44,121 bases of DNA from Nostoc linckia FACHB-104 (GTDB taxonomy: Bacteria > Cyanobacteriota > Cyanobacteriia > Cyanobacteriales > Nostocaceae). Shown piece by piece: positions 3,108-28,427 of this stretch. A program made the position numbers and the translations under genes. The stretch covers positions 1 to 44,121 of the forward strand of contig NZ_JACJQJ010000069.1 of the NCBI RefSeq assembly GCF_014696615.1, in the 5' to 3' direction. Positions within the stretch are counted from its first letter, which is position 1. Each line of letters begins with the position of its first letter. The notes below the pieces were generated by a model that was given only the letters and a program-made list of their open reading frames with translations, did no database searches and was not told the DNA's origin.

Positions 3108-3245
3108 GGGCTTTCCAAGTAAAAAAATACTATCACTTGTTGGGCAGGGGGAAGAAAGAAAAGATTGTTTCTCGTCATACCAAATTGAAAACAGAATGCG
3201 ACAGATGGATTGACAGAATGCAATCCAAAATCCAAAGCTCATAAC

Positions 3246-3365
3246 TTGAACTATCGTGATCCGGCTACCATTAAACCAGCAGAATGGGCAAATCGCGAAA
3301 ATGAGGGCATTTTACTTGTGCCCAAAGCTGGCGAAATACTTTATCGGTTGACTGCTGACGGTTGA
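3246..3365 (+). pseudogene. Possible gene remnant, protein-like open stretch
   Basis: Reading from TTG at 3246 gives 39 residues beginning LNYRDPATIKPAEWANRENE, then GILLVPKAGEILYRL, ending inside the GTTGACT repeat. Its composition is protein-like (balanced charges, no low complexity), but there is no ATG, no ribosome-binding site, and the flanks are repeats. I do not recognise the family. It may be the leftover of a degraded gene or simply a chance open frame. Confidence 0.2.
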
Positions 3366-16692: not shown

Positions 16693-17007
16693 ATGTCAAA
16701 AGTCAGTAAAACTAAAAATATAATTACTGGATGCTTTCTACTATTATTATTCCATCTAGTATTTACTATTTTAATCATTGTTATTGCCGCTCTTACACAA
16801 AGTAATTATAATTTATCTCTGAAAATTATAGTTTATGGAATATATGGCTTTTCACTTTGGCAGCTTATATATGCTATTCCATTATGTTTATGGTTAAAGT
16901 ATCAGGGCAAAAATTATGTGATGAAAGGAGTATTTATAGCTGTATTGGTTACCCTTTTAGTCCATATTGGATATTTTTTATTAGTTTTTGGTTTGATTAT
17001 TCGTTAA
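16693..17007 (+). CDS. Small integral membrane protein
   Basis: 104 residues, strongly hydrophobic, with three predicted membrane segments (about 11-34, 43-65, 75-102) and a short basic N-terminus, MSKVSKTKN. The family is not recognised. It is AT-rich and lies 144 bp after the cupin gene in the same direction; the spacing does not clearly indicate an operon. Confidence 0.6.
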   Translation: MSKVSKTKNIITGCFLLLLFHLVFTILIIVIAALTQSNYNLSLKIIVYGIYGFSLWQLIYAIPLCLWLKYQGKNYVMKGVFIAVLVTLLVHIGYFLLVFGLIIR

Positions 17008-17216
17008 TTGTTTATAAAATTTCCCATACCCCTTTTTCCCCTTAACCAAAAAGTATTGGAACCCAATTGGTAAAGATACCTGCTGTTATGGGAATCAAGA
17101 TTGAGAGGTTTGGGTGATAATTCTTGTTTTCAGCGCCTTACCACAGGCTTGACGCTACGCATAATAATTGCTGTGGTTGACTCGGGAAGTTGCAAAAAAA
17201 CTTAATACACGTTTTA

Positions 17217-17230
17217 TGCACACGTGTGCA
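17217..17230. promoter_or_regulatory. Operator-like palindrome TGCACACGTGTGCA, copy 1
   Basis: A perfect 14-bp palindrome with central CG, the form typical of LacI-family operators. It is identical to copy 2, which begins 34 bp downstream (about three helical turns). It lies 86 bp before the inositol oxygenase ATG. The sequence between the two copies contains TTATAAAAA, which could be a -10 box, so a bound repressor would cover the promoter. Confidence 0.7.
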
Positions 17231-17250
17231 ATTATAAAAACATCAGCTAA

Positions 17251-17264
17251 TGCACACGTGTGCA
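17251..17264. promoter_or_regulatory. Operator-like palindrome TGCACACGTGTGCA, copy 2
   Basis: An exact second copy, extended by one A-T pair on each side, 51 bp before the oxygenase start. Two identical palindromes in phase on the helix argue for cooperative binding of a dimeric regulator. No LacI-type regulator gene lies in this window, so the cognate protein would be encoded elsewhere. Confidence 0.7.
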
Positions 17265-17315
17265 TGAAGAGCTAAAGTCCGATTCCACAGGAAACTGGCG
17301 TAACTCCTCACAAAT

Positions 17316-18209
17316 ATGTCTTATACTCTCAATACCGTTAACCAAGCTGAAAACAATCCCTTACATTCCTTAGAAGAATGGGAAGAGGATGTACTGAATC
17401 GCTATCCCGATCCAGGAAGCATAGTTAAAGCGGGTAAAACTACTGCAGAATACAGAAATTATGAAACAACTACTAGAGATTCAGTTAAAGAGTTTTATCG
17501 GTTAAATCATGTTAACCAAACCTACGACTTTGTGCTTCAGAAAAAGGCAGAGTTTTTGCAGTTTAATCAGCGAGAAATGACGGTTTGGGATGCGGTAGAA
17601 TTTTTAAACCAATTAGTTGATGATTCTGATCCAGATACAGATTTAGATCAGTTACAGCACTTATTACAAACATCAGAAGCTATTCGTGCTGATGGACATC
17701 CTGATTGGATGGTACTAACTGGCTTCTTTCACGATATGGGGAAGGTGCTGTGTTTATTTGGCGAACCACAATGGACGACTGTAGGCGATACTTACCCTGT
17801 GGGTTGTGCATTCTCCGATAAAATTGTCTTCGCGGAATTTTTTCAAGATAATCCTGATTACAATAACCCGAAATATAACACCAAATATGGGATTTATGAG
17901 CCGAATTGTGGACTGAGTAATGTCCAGATGTCATGGGGTCATGATGAATATTTTTATCACATGATGAAACCCTATTTACCTGAACCCGCTTTATACATCC
18001 TGCGTTATCACTCCTTTTACCCACAACATCGAGAAAACGCCTACGAACATTTAATGAATCAGCGCGATCGCGAAATGTTCAAGTGGGTGAAATTATTCAA
18101 TCCCTACGATTTGTATTCTAAAAATCCCCATCCTCCAAATTGGCAAGAACTCAGACCATATTATGAAGATTTAGTGGCTAAGTACTTACCTGCTACTTTA
18201 AAATTCTAA
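17316..18209 (+). CDS. myo-Inositol oxygenase
   Basis: 297 residues, full length for the family. The enzyme opens the ring of myo-inositol with O2 to give D-glucuronate, using a di-iron centre in an HD-type helical fold. By alignment from memory with the mouse enzyme, all six iron ligands are present: His115 (QHLLQTSEAIR), His139-Asp140 (FFHDMGK), His209 (SWGHDEY), His232 (RYHSFYP) and Asp265 (FNPYDLY). Lys143, the equivalent of the substrate-contacting Lys of HDLGK, is also kept, as are FGEPQW and VGDTYPVGC. The first ~50 residues are variable, as in eukaryotic homologues. Cytoplasmic, no signal peptide. Two operator-like palindromes precede it, and a sugar ABC transporter follows on the same strand after a long gap. 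The enzyme is best known from eukaryotes. Catalytic identity is strong; physiological role is inferred. Confidence 0.95.
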   Translation: MSYTLNTVNQAENNPLHSLEEWEEDVLNRYPDPGSIVKAGKTTAEYRNYETTTRDSVKEFYRLNHVNQTYDFVLQKKAEFLQFNQREMTVWDAVEFLNQLVDDSDPDTDLDQLQHLLQTSEAIRADGHPDWMVLTGFFHDMGKVLCLFGEPQWTTVGDTYPVGCAFSDKIVFAEFFQDNPDYNNPKYNTKYGIYEPNCGLSNVQMSWGHDEYFYHMMKPYLPEPALYILRYHSFYPQHRENAYEHLMNQRDREMFKWVKLFNPYDLYSKNPHPPNWQELRPYYEDLVAKYLPATLKF

Positions 18210-19177
18210 ATGTTAGGTGGTTGCCAAGCTCAGTATTTCTTAAATCCTCCCTTAATGCTGAGATGGCATTAGGTAAAATTTAAGTTTTTTCTGACGTTAG
18301 ATAGATGAAAATAATACCGTTTTGTATTATGTGACGTCAAGCATAACTTCAAAAATAGTTATTGCAAACAGCACAATTGAGACAGATTTAAAAATAATGT
18401 ACAAGAATTTTCAGGTATGCGGCTGTTATACGTTTCATGGGTAACAGATGGTTTGCTGTATTGCCATAAAAATTCACAATTGCTTAGTCGAAAAAAGCTG
18501 AAATTTGACATTAAATATTAGTTACCAAAGAGTGTTAAATTTTATGAATTGATTTTCAGAAATAGCAGTGAATTTGGTTAAATTTGGATATGGGCTAAAA
18601 GCGGCTAATTTATCGGAAATACTTCTCAAGAGATAGAAAACCACTATAGTTTTATAACTTTAGAAAAAGTAGTTTTAGATAAAAAGTGTCTGCCGCTATC
18701 AAGCAAGATTAGCCAAAGAAAAAGTAATTTATACCAGTACATTCAAACAGCTTTTACAAAACTCTAATGTAAAAATTTGATGTATTGCAGCCAGCGACTT
18801 TTAACATTCAAAAAAAGTATTAATGCTAATTCAGAATTTAGGCATTCAGATTTGCTCCGAGCTTCTAGGTTAAAATCTGGTGACAAATTTTCCAGAATTG
18901 GTATGACTAGTACCGCAAGGCGGAAGTCAAAAGTCAAAAGTCAAAAGGTGATAAATCAAGGCTTGTGACTGTTTGAAATGGTAGCTTTATTTACGCCGCG
19001 TTGTACTAGGGCTAATAGTAGTAGCTCAAATAACTATTAATAGCTCAGAAATTTGACAGCGATTGAGCAGTTATAAGCTAGCAGCGCCACTCAATTAGGT
19101 CTGAATTTTTCAGTCCTAGTTCAAATTGCAATGACATCGCAGATATAGATTGAAATCCATATTTGGATAGATGAATT
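18210..19177. other. Long AT-rich intergenic region between oxygenase and sugar transporter
   Basis: 968 bp without a convincing gene. It contains TGACGTCA (around 18331), a 22-residue-scale protein-like remnant at about 18694-18780 (reading RYQARLAKEKVIYTSTFKQ and stopping), and AAAAGTC heptamers at 18927-18950. The frame at 18777-18968 ends in those heptamers and looks spurious. The transporter promoter must lie in the final few hundred bases. The TGCACACGTGTGCA palindrome is not present here. The length allows an sRNA or a long 5' UTR, but I see no defined structure. Confidence 0.5.
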
Positions 19178-20161
19178 ATGAAGAAAATGGCGATCGCAGC
19201 TAGTATCATCAGCCTGATCAGTAGTACATTGGCAGCTTGCACTAACGTCTCGCGCTACAGCACAAATGCGATCGCACAAAATCAGGGCGAGCAAAATTCC
19301 CAATTGCGATCGCTTGGTGTCAGTCTGGGCGATTTGGGAAATCCCTTCTTTGTAGCTATGGCTAAGGGTTCTGAGTCCCAAGCTAGGAAAATTGTCGGTA
19401 AGGATCTGAAATTGAGTATAGTTTCCAGTGGCTTCGATTTAAATCAGCAATTTAACCAAATTGAAAATTTCGTGGCTGCTGATGCTGACTTAATTATCCT
19501 GAGTGCGGTAGATAATAAAGGTATTAAACCTGCAATTGATCATGCTAGACGAGCCGGAAAGACAGTCATCGCTGTGGATGCGGCTGTTGGTACAGAGGTA
19601 GATGCCACAATTAGCTCCAATAATCTGCAAGCTGGAGAAATTGCTTGTCAATATATTGGCGATCGCTTACAAGGTAAAGGTAACGTCGTCATCCTCAACA
19701 GTATACCGATGGATTCAGTCATTCAGCGCGTGAATGGCTGCCAAAAGGCATTAGCAAAATATCCTGATATCAAAATCTTCTCCAAAGACCAAAACGCCGA
19801 AGGAAGCCGGGATGGAGGATTGCGAGTCATGAGCGATTTGCTGACAACCTTCCCCAAGATAGATGCAGTATTTGCCACCAATGATCAAAGTGGCGTAGGT
19901 GCAGGCTTAGCAGCGAGACAAGCTAGGCGCAAAGAATTTTTTATCGTTGGGGTTGACGGTGGCCCAGATGCAGTTAAAGCCATGACAACCAAAGATAGCT
20001 TATTTGCGGCAACTGCAGCTCAAGATCCAGTCGGGATGGCTGCAAAGGCTGTTGATGTTGGTAACGACATTCTACAGGGCAAAAGACCGAGTAATCCCAA
20101 TATTTTGATTCCAGTCAAGCTGGTAACGCAAGAGAACATTAGCAGTTACCAAGGCTGGTAG
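19178..20161 (+). CDS. Sugar/polyol ABC transporter substrate-binding lipoprotein, copy 1
   Basis: 327 residues. It has a lipoprotein signal with lipobox LAAC (Cys21), then a type I periplasmic-binding fold of the ribose/galactose/inositol (Peripla_BP_4) class. It recognises the start of domain 1 as GVSLGDLGNPFFVAM and the hinge/domain 2 regions as DAVFATNDQSGVGAG and FFIVGVDGGPDAV. Family members deliver pentoses, hexoses or inositol to RbsA/RbsC-type transporters. It is the first gene of a four-gene run with a close paralogue directly behind. Proximity to inositol oxygenase suggests inositol as ligand, but ribose, xylose or another sugar cannot be excluded from sequence. Confidence 0.92.
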   Translation: MKKMAIAASIISLISSTLAACTNVSRYSTNAIAQNQGEQNSQLRSLGVSLGDLGNPFFVAMAKGSESQARKIVGKDLKLSIVSSGFDLNQQFNQIENFVAADADLIILSAVDNKGIKPAIDHARRAGKTVIAVDAAVGTEVDATISSNNLQAGEIACQYIGDRLQGKGNVVILNSIPMDSVIQRVNGCQKALAKYPDIKIFSKDQNAEGSRDGGLRVMSDLLTTFPKIDAVFATNDQSGVGAGLAARQARRKEFFIVGVDGGPDAVKAMTTKDSLFAATAAQDPVGMAAKAVDVGNDILQGKRPSNPNILIPVKLVTQENISSYQGW

Positions 20162-20232
20162 GGAGGGGACAAGGGGAAAGGGGGAAAGGGGGAAGGGTTT
20201 AGGAGCTAAGTTGAATTTTATGAGGAGTCTCA

Positions 20233-21225
20233 ATGAACGTAAATAGGATTGCAATAGCAGCCAGTATATTAGGTATCGTTAGCACAACCCTTGGTGGCTG
20301 TATTAGTCCTAATGTCTCTCGGAATAGCACAAATGCTATAGATGCTAACGGCAATCATCAGGGAAAATTAAAAGCCGTAGGTGTTACCGTTGGCGATTTA
20401 AGTAACCCGTTCTTCGTGCTGATGGGTAAAGGTGCTGAAAGCGAAGCCAAGAAAATTGGCGGTAATGATGTCAGAGTGACTGTAGTTTCTAGCGGCTATG
20501 ACCTCAACCAGCAATTCAACCAAATTGAAAATTTCGTGGCTGCAAATACTGACTTAATTATCTTGAATGCGGCTGATAGTAAAGGTATTAGACCAGCAGT
20601 CGATAAAGCAAGACAAGCAGGTACAGTTGTAATTGCGGTAGATACAGCCGTTGATGCTCAAGTTGATGCCACAGTTACCACCAATAATTTGCAAGCTGGA
20701 GAAGTTGCTTGTCAATATATTGCCGATCGCCTCAAAGGTAAAGGCAATGTCGTCATCGTCAACGGCCCGCCAGTTAACTCAGTGATTCAGCGAGTTAATG
20801 GTTGTGAAAATACCTTAGCCAAATATCCCAATATTAAAGTCCTCTCGAAAAACCAGAACGCCGAAGGTAGCAGAGATGGCGGATTGAGAGTCATGGGCGA
20901 TTTACTAGTTACCTTCCCCAAGATAGATGCAGTCTTTGCCATTAACGATCCCAGTGGTGTAGGTGTAGACTTAGCAGCTAACCAAGCCAAACGCAAAGAA
21001 TTTTTCATTGTGGGAGTTGATGGTGCGCCAGAAGCAATTAATGCGATCGCATCCAAAAAAAGCCTCTATGCAGCAACAGCTACCCAAAACCCCAGAGGAA
21101 TGACGCAAAAAGCCGTGCAAGTGGGCAATGACATTTTACAGGGTAAAAAACCCAGCAATCCTAATATCCTGATTCCGGTGAAGTTGATTACTCAAGACAA
21201 TGTCAGCAGCTTTCCAGGGTGGTAA
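20233..21225 (+). CDS. Sugar/polyol ABC transporter substrate-binding lipoprotein, copy 2
   Basis: 330 residues, lipobox LGGC (Cys23), ribosome-binding site GAGGAG before the ATG. It is a tandem duplicate of the preceding gene, with most blocks identical (NQQFNQIENFVAA, QRVNGC, NAEGSRDGGLRVM). Domain 1 begins GVTVGDLSNPFFVLM. It differs at several pocket-adjacent positions, for example AINDPSGVGVD against ATNDQSGVGAG, and DGAPEAI against DGGPDAV. The two may bind different ligands or work over different concentrations with one shared ATPase and permease. 71 bp of purine-rich repeat separate it from copy 1. Confidence 0.92.
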   Translation: MNVNRIAIAASILGIVSTTLGGCISPNVSRNSTNAIDANGNHQGKLKAVGVTVGDLSNPFFVLMGKGAESEAKKIGGNDVRVTVVSSGYDLNQQFNQIENFVAANTDLIILNAADSKGIRPAVDKARQAGTVVIAVDTAVDAQVDATVTTNNLQAGEVACQYIADRLKGKGNVVIVNGPPVNSVIQRVNGCENTLAKYPNIKVLSKNQNAEGSRDGGLRVMGDLLVTFPKIDAVFAINDPSGVGVDLAANQAKRKEFFIVGVDGAPEAINAIASKKSLYAATATQNPRGMTQKAVQVGNDILQGKKPSNPNILIPVKLITQDNVSSFPGW

Positions 21226-21232
21226 ATCAGCA

Positions 21233-21345
21233 GTGCTGAGTGCTGAGTGCTGAGTGCTGAGTCAAGAGTCAAAAGTCAAAAGTTATTTATCCCCAGTCCC
21301 CAGTCACCAATCCCCAATCCCCAGTCCCCAATCCCCAATCCCCCA
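21233..21345. repeat. Heptamer arrays (GAGTGCT, AAAAGTC, CCCCAGT/CCCCAAT)
   Basis: Three different heptamer types follow one another in the gap between the second binding protein and the ATPase gene: about four GAGTGCT units, two AAAAGTC units, and about seven CCCCAGT or CCCCAAT units. The arrays fill nearly the whole intergenic space inside the operon. Confidence 0.85.
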
Positions 21346-21353
21346 AACAACTT

Positions 21354-22901
21354 ATGACAACCGATTTCCAACGAATACCCAATGCACCAACCACCACCCC
21401 GGTGTTGGAAATGCAAGGAATAACAAAACGATTTCATGGTGTACCTGCTCTCCAAAATGTTAATCTCACAATTTATCCGGGAGAAGTTCACGCCCTGATG
21501 GGGGAGAACGGTGCAGGGAAAAGTACATTGATGAAAATCCTGGCTGGGGCTTATATAGCCGATGAAGGGGAAATTCGCATCAATGGTCAACCGATAAAAA
21601 TTACCAATCCCGGTACAGCGCGACAGGCGGGAATAAATCTAATTTATCAAGAACTGAATGTTGCACCCAATTTAACCGTTACCGAAAACATTTTTATGGG
21701 TAGCGAGTTGCAAAAAGGTCAGTTTTTAGACCGCCAAGGAATGGAACGGGAAACAACCCAAGTACTGCAAAGTTTGGGCGCTAGTTTTGCACCTAATACT
21801 ATAGTTGGTACACTCTCAATTGCGGAACAACAACAGGTAGAAATTGCCAGGGCGCTGAAAGATAATAGCCGCGTTTTGGTGATGGATGAACCCACAGCCG
21901 CCCTATCAGACCGGGAGACGGAACGTTTATTTGAGGTGGTTCGCAAACTCCGCAATGATGGCATTGCCATTATCTATATCAGTCACCGCATGGAAGAAAT
22001 ATATGCCTTGGCTGACCGAATTAGCGTCTTACGTGATGGTCAATATATTGGCACTCTCACACGGGAAGAAATTTCACCGCAACGATTGGTGCAGATGATG
22101 GTTGGTCGTCCTATGCAGGATTTTTACGAACATCAACGGCAAACCAATGTCGGCCCGGTGGTGCTGGATGTGAGAAATATCAGCGATGGACGCAAGGTTA
22201 AACCCGCTAGTTTACAAATTCATGCTGGCGAAATTGTTGGTTTAGCTGGGCTAGTTGGTGCTGGACGCACAGAAGTATCGCGGCTAATTTTTGGCGCTGA
22301 CCGCAAAGCCAGTGGTGAAGTTTTCCTCGATGGCAAAAAACTCGAGATTAATAACCCTAGTGATGCTATTACTGCGGGAATTGGTTACGTTCCCGAAGAC
22401 CGCAAAGACCAGGGTTTATTTTTAGAAATGAGTTCCCGCAAAAATATTGCCCTGAATCGGCTAAAACAGGATGCCAAAGCTGGCATAGTTAACTGGGGTT
22501 CAGTGAATAAAATTGCCACAGATGCAGTCGAAAACTTTCAAATCCGGCTAGCGAATTTAGAAATTCGCGCCGTGGATCTTTCCGGTGGAAACCAGCAGAA
22601 ACTTTTACTAGCGCGTTGGCTAGCCATTAAACCCAAAGTATTGATGTTGGATGAGCCGACACGCGGTGTAGATATTGGTGCCAAAAGCGAAATCTACCGG
22701 ATTATGAGCGAATTAGCAGCCCAAGGTATCGCTATTTTGATGGTTTCCAGCGAATTACCCGAGGTTGTGGGAATGAGCGATCGCGTTTTAGTCATGCGCG
22801 AAGGGCAGTTAGTTGGTGAACTTGACGGTAGCCCAGGTAAGGAAATTACCCAAGAAAACATTATGCACTATGCCACAGGAGCAGAGGTATTAGCATCATG
22901 A
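21354..22901 (+). CDS. Sugar ABC transporter ATPase (RbsA-type, two ABC domains)
   Basis: 515 residues with two fused ABC domains, as in RbsA, XylG and inositol transporters. Domain 1 has Walker [10 protein letters not shown] (50-58), signature [15 protein letters not shown] and Walker [12 protein letters not shown]. Domain 2 has the degenerate Walker [10 protein letters not shown] usual for this class, signature [15 protein letters not shown] and Walker [13 protein letters not shown]. It energises uptake with the permease that follows, whose start overlaps its stop by 4 bp (ATGA), indicating coupled translation. Confidence 0.95.
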
Positions 22902-23896
22902 GTCAAACTTTAAGACCTACCCAAAATCGACCTGAAAGCCAGGCTAAATCTCGCCAGCGGCAATCAATTAACAACTTTCTCCAGGTGGCAGGTATTCTGC
23001 CCATTCTGATACTCATCTGTATCTTATTTGCGCTTCTCACTCCCAACTTTGGCACAGCTGGTAACGCCGTCAATATCTTGCGCCAAGCATCAATTAACAT
23101 TGTGCTGGCAACAGGCATGACCTTTGTCATTCTTACAGGTGGTATTGACCTTTCTGTTGGTTCCATCTTGGCTGTTTCTGCCGTCGTCGCGGTGTTGGTA
23201 TCGCTACTGCCGGCTTTAGGTTGGGCGGCTGTTCCTGCGGCATTATTAACAGGATTGCTTTTAGGCTTAGTCAACGGTGCGTTAATTACCTTTTTAGATG
23301 TCCCGCCGTTTATTGTTACCTTGGGTTCACTCACAGCCTTGCGCGGTGCTGCCTACTTGGTAGCCAATGGTACCACTGTCATCAACCCAGACCTAAATTT
23401 TGCTTGGGTAGGTAATAGCTATTTAGGCCCCATTCCCTGGTTAGTTATGATTGCCTTGCTGACTGTAGTCGCCAGTTGGTTTGTGCTACGGCAGACAGTT
23501 TTAGGTGTGCAAATTTACGCAGTAGGTGGTAACCAACGGGCAGCAAGATTAACTGGGATTAAAGTCAATCGCGTCTTACTATTTGTCTATGGATTAAGTG
23601 GATTATTAGCAGGTTTAGCTGGAATCATGAGTGCCAGCCGCCTTTACAGCGCTACTGGGTTATTAGGACAAGGTTATGAACTAGATGCGATCGCGGCTGT
23701 AATTTTAGGCGGTACTAGCTTTACAGGTGGTATTGGTACTATTGGCGGAACTCTTCTCGGTGCCTTAATTATTGCTGTTCTCAACAATGGTTTAACATTG
23801 TTGAATATGTCTTACTTTTGGCAACTTGTTGTTAAAGGTTTAGTAATTATTGTGGCAGTAATGATTGACCGACTCCGCAGAAGATCCAAACGGTAA
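22898..23896 (+). CDS. Sugar ABC transporter permease (RbsC-type)
   Basis: 332 residues, with about eight to ten membrane helices and a basic cytoplasmic N-terminus. Family-typical segments include [13 protein letters not shown] (about 86-98), [37 protein letters not shown] (the loop contacting the ATPase) and [21 protein letters not shown]. It forms the membrane channel of the transporter; its overlap with the ATPase gene confirms one operon. It is followed directly by a 46-bp palindrome that may end the transcript. Confidence 0.95.
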
Positions 23897-23897
23897 T

Positions 23898-23943
23898 AAT
23901 TACGAATTACGAATTACGAATTCGTAATTCGTAATTCGTAATT
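23898..23943 (+). terminator. 46-bp perfect palindrome after the sugar ABC operon
   Basis: Three AATTACG heptamers are followed by their exact reverse complement, centred on GAATTC at 23918-23923. The 23-bp arms have no mismatch and no loop. A T-rich run (TGTTTGTTTTATTCTTT) follows. It begins one base after the permease stop codon, so it can serve as a terminator, yet it is built from heptamers like the other repeats. Confidence 0.7.
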
Positions 23944-23969
23944 TGTTTGTTTTATTCTTTCTAAGATTA

Positions 23970-24062
23970 GTAGGTTGGGTTGACGTAAGGAAACCCAACA
24001 CCAAAATATCGATTAAGCTTTAAATATTCATGTTGGGTTGCGCTGCGCTTAACCCAACCTAC
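23970..24062. mobile_element. MITE-like element with perfect 12-bp terminal inverted repeats
   Basis: A 93-bp unit bounded by GTAGGTTGGGTT (23970-23981) and AACCCAACCTAC (24051-24062), with internal echoes of the same words (AAACCCAACA, TGTTGGGTTG). Elements with these ends are widespread between cyanobacterial genes. It encodes nothing. It is followed at 24068-24115 by another dispersed type, GAGACGCTACGCGAACG. Confidence 0.7.
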
Positions 24063-24156
24063 ATCTCTACGCCGAACGTGCCTTCTCTGCGAGACGCTAC
24101 GCGAACGCAGTTCGTTTTTTACTCCTCAAAATTAACGCGATCGCACCATAAATTAA

Positions 24157-24178
24157 GGGCACAACAATGTTTGTGCCC
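24157..24178 (+). repeat. Hairpin GGGCACAA / TTGTGCCC
   Basis: A perfect 8-bp stem with a 6-base loop (CAATGT) lies 70 bp before the porin gene. The GGGCACAACAATGTTTGTGCCC type is another dispersed cyanobacterial hairpin; its role as attenuator or repeat cannot be settled here. Confidence 0.55.
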
Positions 24179-24246
24179 CTACTAAGAATTGCTGAACTAG
24201 CTTTAATTACCAATTACCAACTATTGCATATATCATTTTTAAAGCC

Positions 24247-25863
24247 ATGCTAAAAAATTTATTATGCACTTTTCCCCTATTATTCTTTATCTGCCCCGCA
24301 GCCGGGGCGATACCTGCAGACGATAATTTTCCCAACGCAGATGTTAACTCTGTTACTTTGCAAGACCAAGTAACTTCTGTGTCCCAACTTTCAGATATCA
24401 ACCCTACCGATTGGGCATTTCAAGCATTACAATCATTAGTTGAACGCTACGGCTGTATTGCAGGTTATCCTGACTCAACTTATCGTGGTAACCGCGCCCT
24501 TACCCGTTATGAGTTTGCAGCTGGTTTAAATGCTTGCTTGACCCGAATTAATGAATTAATTTCCACTGCAACCACTGATTTAGTCAGAAAAGAAGACTTA
24601 GCAGTGTTGCAAAATTTACAACAAGAGTTTTCTGCCGAATTAGCAACTCTGCGTGGGCGAGTGGATGTGTTAGAAGCGCGGGAAGCAACATTAGAAGCGC
24701 AACAGTTTTCCACCACTACTAAATTGAATGCCCAAATTATTACTGCTGTTAGCGATACCTTTGGTAACAGTGTAGGCGGAGATAGAGATCAATCTAACAC
24801 CTATTTTAGCGATCGCGGTCGTCTGAATTTAGAAAGCAGCTTTACAGGCAAAGACTTGTTGCGAGTCCGGCTGGAGTTCGGTAACTTCTTAAATTCTAAT
24901 AATACCAGTCAGATAGCCTCTGTCACGGGTACAGGTATGACGCGGTTGAACTTTGATACCAACAGCAACAATACCCTATCTATTCCTCATATCCGTTATT
25001 ACTTCCCTGTCAGCGATGCTCTTGCCTTTGTAGTGGGGCCTGTAGGTATTGGCTACACTGATATTACATCAACCGTGACCCCCGCTGTAATTGCAGATGA
25101 CGGTAACGGCGTTCCTTCACTGTTTGGACAATATAGTCCGTTATTCCGGCGGGGTGGTGGTGGTGCAGCAGTTAATTGGTTCATCACCCCAGATGTAATT
25201 TTGACTTTAGGCTATCTTGCAGGTTCTCCCGAAAATCCATCATCAGGCAATGGCATATTTAATGGCGGTTACAATGCTTTAGTACACTTGGTTTTTAACG
25301 GCAAACAAGGTTCGATTGGGATTGCCTATTCTCATGGCTATAGTCCAGGGGGACAAGTTAATCTGACAGGTGGAGCAGGTAGTAACCTAGCAATTTCTCC
25401 TTTTGGAGATACCATTGCAACGTCTAACAATATAGTAGGCGCACAAGGATTCTATCGCTTTTCGCAAAACTTCCAGGTTCATGCTTGGGGTGGGTATATC
25501 TGGGCTAGTGCGGAAAATTCTGGTTTGAGTAATATTCCTGATGGTAGGGGTGGCAGAGATACATTATTAGTTAACAATGGTGCTAATGCCAATGCTTGGT
25601 TTGGGGCGATTGGCGTATCCTTCCCTGATTTTGGCGGTAGAGGTAATCTCCCAGGAATATTGTTTGGTATCCCACCCCACGTTACCAGCAGCGATGTTCG
25701 TCAAGAAAGTGACCATGCTTACCACATCGAAGCCTTTTATCGGATGCGGCTCAATGATAATATCTCCGTTACTCCTGGCTTTTGGGTAGTTCTCAATCCA
25801 GAGAACAATAGCAGCAATAATACTCAGTATGTTGGGGTGTTGCGGACAACGTTTGATTTTTAG
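24247..25863 (+). CDS. SLH-domain OprB-type outer-membrane porin
   Basis: 538 residues. A signal peptide (about 1-21, ending AAGA) is followed by one SLH domain (about 48-110; DWAFQALQSLVERYGCIAGY, then TRYEFAAGLNACLTRI), which anchors such proteins to cell-wall polymer. A short coiled coil follows (about 115-155), then a beta-barrel of the OprB carbohydrate-porin family ending in aromatic VLRTTFDF, the usual barrel C-terminus. Cyanobacterial members are annotated as carbohydrate or iron-uptake porins and pass small solutes. It follows the sugar ABC operon after 350 bp of repeats on the same strand, so it may be the outer-membrane step for the same solute. Because these porins are abundant in Nostocales, the association may be coincidental. 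Confidence 0.92.
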   Translation: MLKNLLCTFPLLFFICPAAGAIPADDNFPNADVNSVTLQDQVTSVSQLSDINPTDWAFQALQSLVERYGCIAGYPDSTYRGNRALTRYEFAAGLNACLTRINELISTATTDLVRKEDLAVLQNLQQEFSAELATLRGRVDVLEAREATLEAQQFSTTTKLNAQIITAVSDTFGNSVGGDRDQSNTYFSDRGRLNLESSFTGKDLLRVRLEFGNFLNSNNTSQIASVTGTGMTRLNFDTNSNNTLSIPHIRYYFPVSDALAFVVGPVGIGYTDITSTVTPAVIADDGNGVPSLFGQYSPLFRRGGGGAAVNWFITPDVILTLGYLAGSPENPSSGNGIFNGGYNALVHLVFNGKQGSIGIAYSHGYSPGGQVNLTGGAGSNLAISPFGDTIATSNNIVGAQGFYRFSQNFQVHAWGGYIWASAENSGLSNIPDGRGGRDTLLVNNGANANAWFGAIGVSFPDFGGRGNLPGILFGIPPHVTSSDVRQESDHAYHIEAFYRMRLNDNISVTPGFWVVLNPENNSSNNTQYVGVLRTTFDF

Positions 25864-28082: not shown

Positions 28083-28427
28083 TTGTGTTGTGAACTTATG
28101 ATATTTGGTGAGCCTTTGAGCCTAGACGTTGAGGCTTTAAACCTGGACGTTGAGCCTTTGAGCCTAGACGTTGAGGCTTTAAACCTGAACGTTGAGCCTT
28201 TGAGCTTAGAAGTTGAGGCTTTAAACCTGAACGTTGAGGCTTTGAGCCTGGAAGTTGAGGCTTTAAACCTGAACGTTGAGGCTTTGAGCTTGGAAGTTGA
28301 GGCTTTAAACCTGAACGTTGAGCCTTTGAGCCTGGACGTTGCGGCTTTAAGCCTGAAAGTTGCGGCTTTGAGCCTGAAAGTTGCGGCTTTGAAACTCACC
28401 CTTCACCCTTCACCGTTATGCCCCTAG
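28083..28427 (+). CDS. Possible repetitive small protein encoded by a 21-bp minisatellite
   Basis: The frame is open from TTG at 28083, with AAGGAGGAG five to six bases before it, or from ATG at 28098, giving 114 or 109 residues. After EP come thirteen exact-length heptapeptides (LSLDVEA, LNLNVEP, LSLEVEA types), then a degraded unit and a short tail HPSPLCP. Its stop overlaps the start of the following ATPase gene by 10 bp, compatible with coupled translation. The alternating Leu-x-Leu-x-Val pattern would favour beta structure. The reverse strand is open too, as any 21-bp repeat lacking stops would be. It may be translated or be only a non-coding repeat. Confidence 0.3.
   Translation: MCCELMIFGEPLSLDVEALNLDVEPLSLDVEALNLNVEPLSLEVEALNLNVEALSLEVEALNLNVEALSLEVEALNLNVEPLSLDVAALSLKVAALSLKVAALKLTLHPSPLCP
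28116..28388. repeat. 21-bp minisatellite, 13 units, with 42-bp higher-order period
   Basis: Thirteen uninterrupted 21-bp units occur, such as TTGAGCCTAGACGTTGAGGCT alternating with TTAAACCTGAACGTTGAGCC(T). The alternation gives a 42-bp higher-order period over most of the array; the last three units shift to GTTGCGGCTTTGAGCCTGAAA. Each unit is three heptamers long. Not a CRISPR: there are no unique spacers. Confidence 0.95.

Follow-up and report, generated by a model that had tools for sequence, protein, structure and literature searches.

The stretch analyzed here (the window) comprises 44,121 nt of Nostoc linckia FACHB-104 (assembly GCF_014696615.1, contig NZ_JACJQJ010000069.1, positions 1-44,121, forward strand). 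Gene order identifies hrmE-frtA1A2BC-oprB within it, the upper half of a symbiosis locus already known from Nostoc as hrm (hormogonium-regulating) and responsive to plant partners. Comparison of this half with related genomes points to a regulon in which HrmR, acting at conserved palindromes and responding to a uronate-like inducer, probably controls a sugar uptake set and, where the locus is whole, a closed route from inositol to 6-phosphogluconate. Of this proposal, the genes present, the families they belong to, their catalytic residues, the conserved palindrome and the joint occurrence of the genes were observed directly, whereas each substrate, the flux and the ligand of the binding protein FrtA1 are inferred. 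The hrm locus is already known, and hrmE is given as an inositol oxygenase, and hrmA as unknown, in the list of PMC5987646; a review describes hrmA as lacking a homologue and hrmE as lacking a known function (PMC8074062). Three elements are apparently new: the family to which HrmA is assigned, the proposal of the palindrome as operator, and the closure of the route.

According to the proposed mechanism, the LacI-type repressor HrmR would bind the palindrome TGCACACGTGTGCA upstream of hrmE (two copies in this strain) and in the divergent promoter of hrmR and hrmK, from which a uronate-like inducer would release it. HrmE would convert myo-inositol to D-glucuronate, HrmI would isomerize the latter to D-fructuronate, and HrmU would reduce this to D-mannonate. 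HrmA, as a member of the nickel-pincer-nucleotide LarA family, would then invert D-mannonate at C2 to give D-gluconate, and HrmK would convert D-gluconate to 6-phosphogluconate, which would enter the oxidative pentose phosphate pathway. In the strain analyzed the lower route is broken, with uptake, HrmE, HrmK and HrmR remaining.

Two identical, perfect palindromes were found upstream of hrmE, at positions 17217-17230 and 17251-17264, the second lying 34 bases downstream of the first; position 17217, chosen as the start of the locus in the original prediction, is the first base of the palindrome. Among 145 sampled genomes from the window's family, its own genome included, an exact copy of TGCACACGTGTGCA was present within 206 bases 5' of the myo-inositol oxygenase (MIOX) gene in all members with an intact gene (18/18), and a second site with 0 to 2 mismatches was found at a spacing of 28-43 bases in 16 of the 17 other intact-MIOX loci. 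Allowing one mismatch, the own genome contained three sites, all of them exact, and none for the reversed control; the third was located on another contig (C18), between the genes of a LacI-type regulator and a GntK-type gluconokinase, so that the putative HrmR shares its site with hrmE. Over the family sample, exact copies amounted to 64 sites in 28 genomes (reversed pattern, 0 in all 145). Among the 62 sites outside the window, 59 lay at most 1.5 kb from the start of a LacI, MIOX, GntK, sugar-binding protein, MFS, DUF1815 or UxaC gene, two preceded MIOX remnants and one preceded a desaturase gene. Because exact copies were nearly all associated with hrm or frt genes and the reversed control gave none, the palindromes are probable HrmR operators, apparently not described as such before; that HrmR acts at the promoters of hrmR and hrmE is known from the literature.

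Two further observations concern this putative regulon. The exact palindrome before a fatty-acid desaturase gene was seen at L186 8047 and L187 9088 (loci of the same-genus genomes G056 and G141), making this gene a possible extra member. In nine loci a DUF1815 protein was encoded near hrmK, hrmE or hrmR (e.g. L186:8845-9201), and its gene is perhaps the 'unk' of the published hrm map.

The hrmE gene (17316-18209, forward strand) matched the MIOX family PF05153 over profile positions 2-249 of 249 (371.5 bits vs. a Pfam cut-off of 25), and its closest solved structure was 2huo ('Inositol oxygenase', E 1.4e-81), the mouse enzyme. The residues corresponding to its six metal ligands (four His and two Asp; H115, H139, D140, H209, H232 and D265) and to the substrate lysine (K143) were invariant among 13 aligned sequences, the 2huo chain included, bearing out what the original prediction had read from the window alone. 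Oxidation of myo-inositol to glucuronate is the natural reading of the enzyme. The ratio of nonsynonymous to synonymous substitution rates (dN/dS) was low in comparisons with four genomes of the same genus (0.06-0.10), indicating that hrmE is under purifying selection.

MIOX matches were detected in 21 of the 145 family genomes, 18 of them intact (own included) and three decayed, and in a phylum sample of 386 genomes four exceeded the cut-off, all within the window's family (five of nine matches fell below the family cut-off and were not counted). The named loci, which represent the best 80 of 583 matches, comprised eight from Nostoc and 72 from elsewhere, the latter titled as Bacteroidota lineages except for one 'uncultured bacterium' and encoding enzymes with 68-77% identity to that of the window. 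In a tree of these best 80 of 583 matches, the window and one mouse segment, a selection that leans to near kin, the Nostoc sequences formed a single clade (100/100) amid the Bacteroidota enzymes. An eukaryotic origin was consequently discarded, and the description of this step as an 'eukaryote-like' entry into sugar-acid metabolism proved misleading. Within the same best 80, the flanks of the Bacteroidota-type loci contained a LacI-type match in 21/72 cases and, unlike Nostoc, a permease match in 0/72; other matches were few and weak (ATPase, 2; sugar-binding protein, 1; SDR, 4; UxaC, 1 with 32%; GntK, 1 with 44%).

The lower half of the proposed route was observed in relatives, where genes in the order LacI-UxaC-SDR-LarA, divergent from GntK, surround palindrome sites and in several genomes directly adjoin the genes for MIOX and the ATP-binding cassette (ABC) transporter; the contiguous version also occurs in Nostoc sp. 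FACHB-973, FACHB-892 and N. foliaceum FACHB-393. This arrangement matches the published names (hrmE, hrmK, hrmR, hrmI, hrmU, hrmA, frtA1A2BC and oprB; PMC5987646) and the operon order hrmRIUA (PMC8074062). In the same-genus genome G122, HrmI (UxaC) was assigned to the glucuronate isomerase family NF002794 (511.7 bits, cut-off 387) and HrmU (SDR) to the D-mannonate oxidoreductase family NF006132 (387.1 bits, cut-off 281), while HrmK of the own genome matched TIGR01313 (GntK/IdnK; 162.3 bits, cut-off 113.75). The best structure for HrmA of G122 was 4NAR (E 7.3e-65), followed at a distance by a lactate racemase (E 7.3e-9). PMC7583248 identifies 4NAR as GntE2 of Thermotoga maritima, a nickel-pincer D-gluconate 2-epimerase reported to epimerize D-mannonate to D-gluconate, and all seven residues which that paper names for catalysis and cofactor binding were kept in 10/10 HrmA sequences compared, at 35-38% identity (the comparison covered 10 of the 12 intact HrmA; those of G003 and G133, encoded away from hrmR, were left out).

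HrmA is thus a member of the nickel-pincer LarA family, apparently a new assignment, and the similarity suggests that it is a D-mannonate/D-gluconate 2-epimerase. Given the reaction of GntE2, HrmA would join HrmU to HrmK, closing the route to 6-phosphogluconate. The distribution of the genes is consistent with such a pathway: HrmI (E <= 1e-20) and HrmA (E <= 1e-40) were intact in an identical set of 12/145 genomes, all of which also contained intact HrmE (fragments of HrmA in G059 and of HrmI in G006, G059 and G110 were not scored), LarC was present in 142/145, and UxuA was absent (0/145 family genomes, with 5/14 controls positive). In the literature available on hrm, hormogonia and nickel-pincer enzymes, HrmA was nowhere named a nickel-pincer enzyme, which does not establish absence from print, and no enzyme assignment for it appeared in the accessible parts of PMC9602106, PMC10095879, PMC12825409, PMC9620832 and PMC6702271. 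A mviM-like neighbor in the related locus L029 reached 73.5 bits against an iolG cut-off of 355; the genomes were not screened for iol genes.

A different substrate for HrmA, either another hexonate or an aldarate, with mannonate leaving through an unrecognized dehydratase, has some points in its favor, as substrates are group-specific and group 18 is untested according to the available text of PMC7583248, and HrmA carries V at the second loop position, where GntE2 has S. Moreover, the search for mannonate dehydratases covered the UxuA type only, and the enolase type and KDG kinase were not searched. Considering that GntE2 is nevertheless the best solved relative, that the genes of gluconokinase and HrmR have a common divergent promoter with the palindrome, and that no UxuA was found, we regard another substrate as improbable, and retain the epimerization of mannonate to gluconate.

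Downstream of hrmE, and on the same (forward) strand, the window encodes two sugar-binding lipoproteins, frtA1 (19178-20161) and frtA2 (20233-21225), both matching PF13407 (Peripla_BP_4), an RbsA-type sugar ABC ATPase, frtB (21354-22901; PF00005, ABC_tran), an RbsC-type permease, frtC (22898-23896; PF02653, BPD_transp_2), and an oprB-like porin (24247-25863; Pfam OprB and SLH). This composition, described in the original prediction, was confirmed by open reading frames (ORFs) and Pfam matches, and the adjacency of oxygenase and transporter, which had been put forward as a check, was recovered as a MIOX-SBP-SBP-RbsA-RbsC order (SBP, sugar-binding protein) in 17/17 other intact-MIOX loci of the family, one of them with a first SBP of only 81 aa. 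A similar porin followed the ABC set in 13 of these 17 loci; four of the 13 porins run off the end of the locus and one is a fragment. The window porin matched the NCBIfam 'iron uptake porin' NF033921 (793 bits), a name that gives no pointer to inositol. The best NCBIfam matches of the remaining components were all below cut-off: AraG, xylose ATPase and RbsA for FrtB, ribose permease for FrtC, and RbsB for the two binding proteins (124.2 and 122.7 bits, cut-off 337), on which the rhizopine-binding family reached 19.5 and 31.9 bits (cut-off 420).

This conserved adjacency would also be expected of a dedicated operon for inositol uptake and oxidation, in which the ABC set brings inositol across the inner membrane. 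In agreement with such an operon, inositol-1-phosphate synthase was found in a single family genome (1/145), which lacks MIOX; its absence from MIOX genomes points to inositol from outside, and an external source is plausible for these strains. The extra binding protein FrtA1 was likewise near full length in 17/18 intact-MIOX genomes, and in a tree of 59 sequences (58 binding proteins and an outgroup) it formed a clade of 19 (100/100) as a diverged paralogue, all from two-SBP loci, whereas FrtA2 grouped with the binding protein that genomes without MIOX have as their only one. Sequences below 270 aa, the short first SBP of G018 among them, and identical ones were dropped from this tree, which leaves out G106, G110 and G120.

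Several results argue against inositol as the cargo. Relatives of the second SBP (E <= 1e-60) were found in 49/145 family genomes, including all 18 with intact MIOX (Fisher p 2.8e-10, a test that ignores relatedness among genomes) and 31 without it: the oxygenase accompanies the transporter, and the transporter is independent of the oxygenase. Two SBP matches also occurred in five genomes without intact MIOX (G047, G106, G110, G111 and G120), and two of these fell within the FrtA1 clade, G111 with a MIOX remnant and G047 without MIOX, next to 17 members from intact-MIOX genomes. At the ribose-pocket positions checked, those of the Escherichia coli protein mapped on 2ioy, both SBPs were equal except for a Phe/Tyr difference at one site in 13/19 FrtA1 sequences, so that the ligand, inositol or sugar, cannot be read from the pocket. 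Finally, the gene order corresponds to frtA1A2BC of N. punctiforme, a fructose transporter on genetic grounds, since its replacement abolishes dark growth on fructose (PMC10515406). An inositol-specific transporter is therefore not supported, and by analogy with the genetics of N. punctiforme and Anabaena variabilis (PMC10515406, PMC8261047) we infer fructose as the substrate of the window's ABC set. The original prediction of a full inositol route from the outer membrane to glucuronate consequently has support for the oxidation step and none for inositol import by the ABC set, and a dedicated inositol operon is considered unlikely.

A gap of 968 bases (18210-19177), containing no ORF of at least 90 aa, separates hrmE from frtA1, and gaps in relatives are similar (e.g. 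964 bases in L022 and 725 in L028). A single transcript hence cannot be claimed, and an frt promoter of its own, or a leader, may lie in the gap; promoter and terminator scans of positions 17000-19300 yielded no more than in shuffled sequences. In one genus (L193, L194, L039 and L040), genes for an aldose 1-epimerase (GalM) and a dioxygenase-family protein went together with the frt set, a pairing that suggests an aldose as the substrate in this genus; MIOX remnants were present in two of the genomes.

A number of observations weigh against the closed catabolic route and the regulon as proposed. At the thresholds used, neither a match to HrmI nor an intact HrmA was found in the own genome, and hrmU was represented by a 110-codon 3' piece behind hrmR. 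Among the 18 intact-MIOX genomes, intact HrmI and HrmA were found in 12 and not in the other six, implying that the lower route is often lost. The name HrmA was given in relatives by operon position (fourth gene). On the hexonate-epimerase family NF052594 HrmA scored 192-195 bits, below the cut-off of 500; the GntE2 segment itself scored 178.6 bits, so this cut-off shuts out the proven enzyme too. Lar_N proteins are not confined to hrm: the domain exceeded its cut-off in 7/386 phylum genomes, one of them (G134) with HrmA and the remaining six from different families (two of nine matches were below cut-off and not counted). A structure prediction of HrmA from a three-row alignment was discarded owing to its low confidence (mean predicted local distance difference test, pLDDT, 36.4). 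According to PMC8261047, the N. punctiforme fructose transporter does not seem to be under the control of HrmR, and PMC5987646 relays a published hypothesis in which the locus serves signaling and not carbon catabolism.

According to that published hypothesis, the hrm enzymes would make a regulatory metabolite, namely a uronate-like HrmR inducer that blocks hormogonia, and HrmE would still produce it in the present strain. The state of the locus here agrees with this to some extent, as hrmE, hrmR and hrmK are kept while the strain has lost hrmI, hrmU and hrmA, and dN/dS is low for hrmE and also for hrmK (0.08-0.12 against the same four genomes). However, the isomerase, oxidoreductase, epimerase and gluconokinase make up a closed catabolic chain, and the gene loss may be too recent for dN/dS to register. 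A purely regulatory role is accordingly possible but doubtful, and the catabolic route is preferred for genomes with a whole locus; for this strain, either the losses of the lower genes are recent or HrmE is useful without them, for instance in making the inducer.

In the own genome hrmR is intact, the hrmRIUA operon is not, and hrmE-frt-oprB and hrmK-hrmR are located on separate contigs. In the same-genus genomes G122 and G003, genes that in the window are found at 38.6-40.8 kb lie next to the cluster at its hrmK end, indicating that a rearrangement split the locus. A 3' remnant of hrmA was detected within the window (3237-3362, forward strand; 42 codons, compared with 417-442 aa in relatives), whose translation corresponds to the C-terminal end followed by a stop (tblastn, 82% over 45 aa, HrmA residues 378-422, at 3228-3362). 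It lies isolated between genes which by eye encode a TPR-repeat protein and a large sensor-kinase-like protein, and is a relic of the event by which the hrm locus was rearranged and broken.

The closest described system is that of N. punctiforme (hrmE, hrmK and hrmRIUA with frtA1A2BC, glcP and oprB; PMC5987646, PMC8074062, PMC10515406), which has the same genes in the same order, a regulator of the LacI type and, linked to them, a fructose ABC transporter with a porin. The present strain differs in that the locus is split over contigs, no hrmI was found and only remnants of hrmU and hrmA are left; in addition, no MFS permease match was found within the window. FrtRABC of A. variabilis also comprises a LacI regulator, ATPase, permease and adjoining porin, as in several MIOX-less loci, but has one binding protein, and hrm enzymes are not mentioned in the available text of PMC8261047. 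An order of this FrtABC type with regulator and porin was found in relatives, whereas the regulator of the window's genome is on another contig. HrmA differs from GntE2 in the loop residue and in belonging to an inositol-oxygenase regulon of phototrophs. PMC5987646 already likens the hrm locus to the way heterotrophs metabolize uronates, and considers that imported sugars may enter the oxidative pentose phosphate pathway.

The hrm locus has long been used to study the symbiosis of plants and cyanobacteria genetically. If HrmA is a nickel-pincer enzyme as proposed, this would provide a complete and testable chemistry from inositol to 6-phosphogluconate and name a candidate host metabolite. It would also supply a user for a cofactor for which a function in cyanobacteria is still being sought: most cyanobacteria are described as lacking LarA-like proteins, though LarB, LarE and LarC are widespread and those of Synechocystis are able to make the nickel-pincer cofactor (PMC11796402). 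Speculatively, and with rather low probability, host inositol or its glucuronate could be the plant signal itself, with FrtA1-dependent uptake, release of HrmR by the uronate formed by HrmE and a nickel-dependent drain through HrmA to 6-phosphogluconate, so that a single pathway would read the host, provide nitrogen fixation with NADPH and block hormogonia; in these strains, HrmA would then use a cofactor that is said to be made by many cyanobacteria lacking LarA.

Regarding the rest of the window, the upstream amylase, cupin and 104-aa membrane protein genes were rejected as members of the system (no match at E <= 1e-8 in 20 related stretches), and neither a tRNA nor an Rfam match at gathering score was found over its full length. 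A tandem array with a 21/42-base unit (13.5/6.8 copies) was located at 28109-28395, between genes that by eye resemble the permease and ATPase of an iron- or B12-type ABC transporter, and many 7-base repeats occurred elsewhere in the window.

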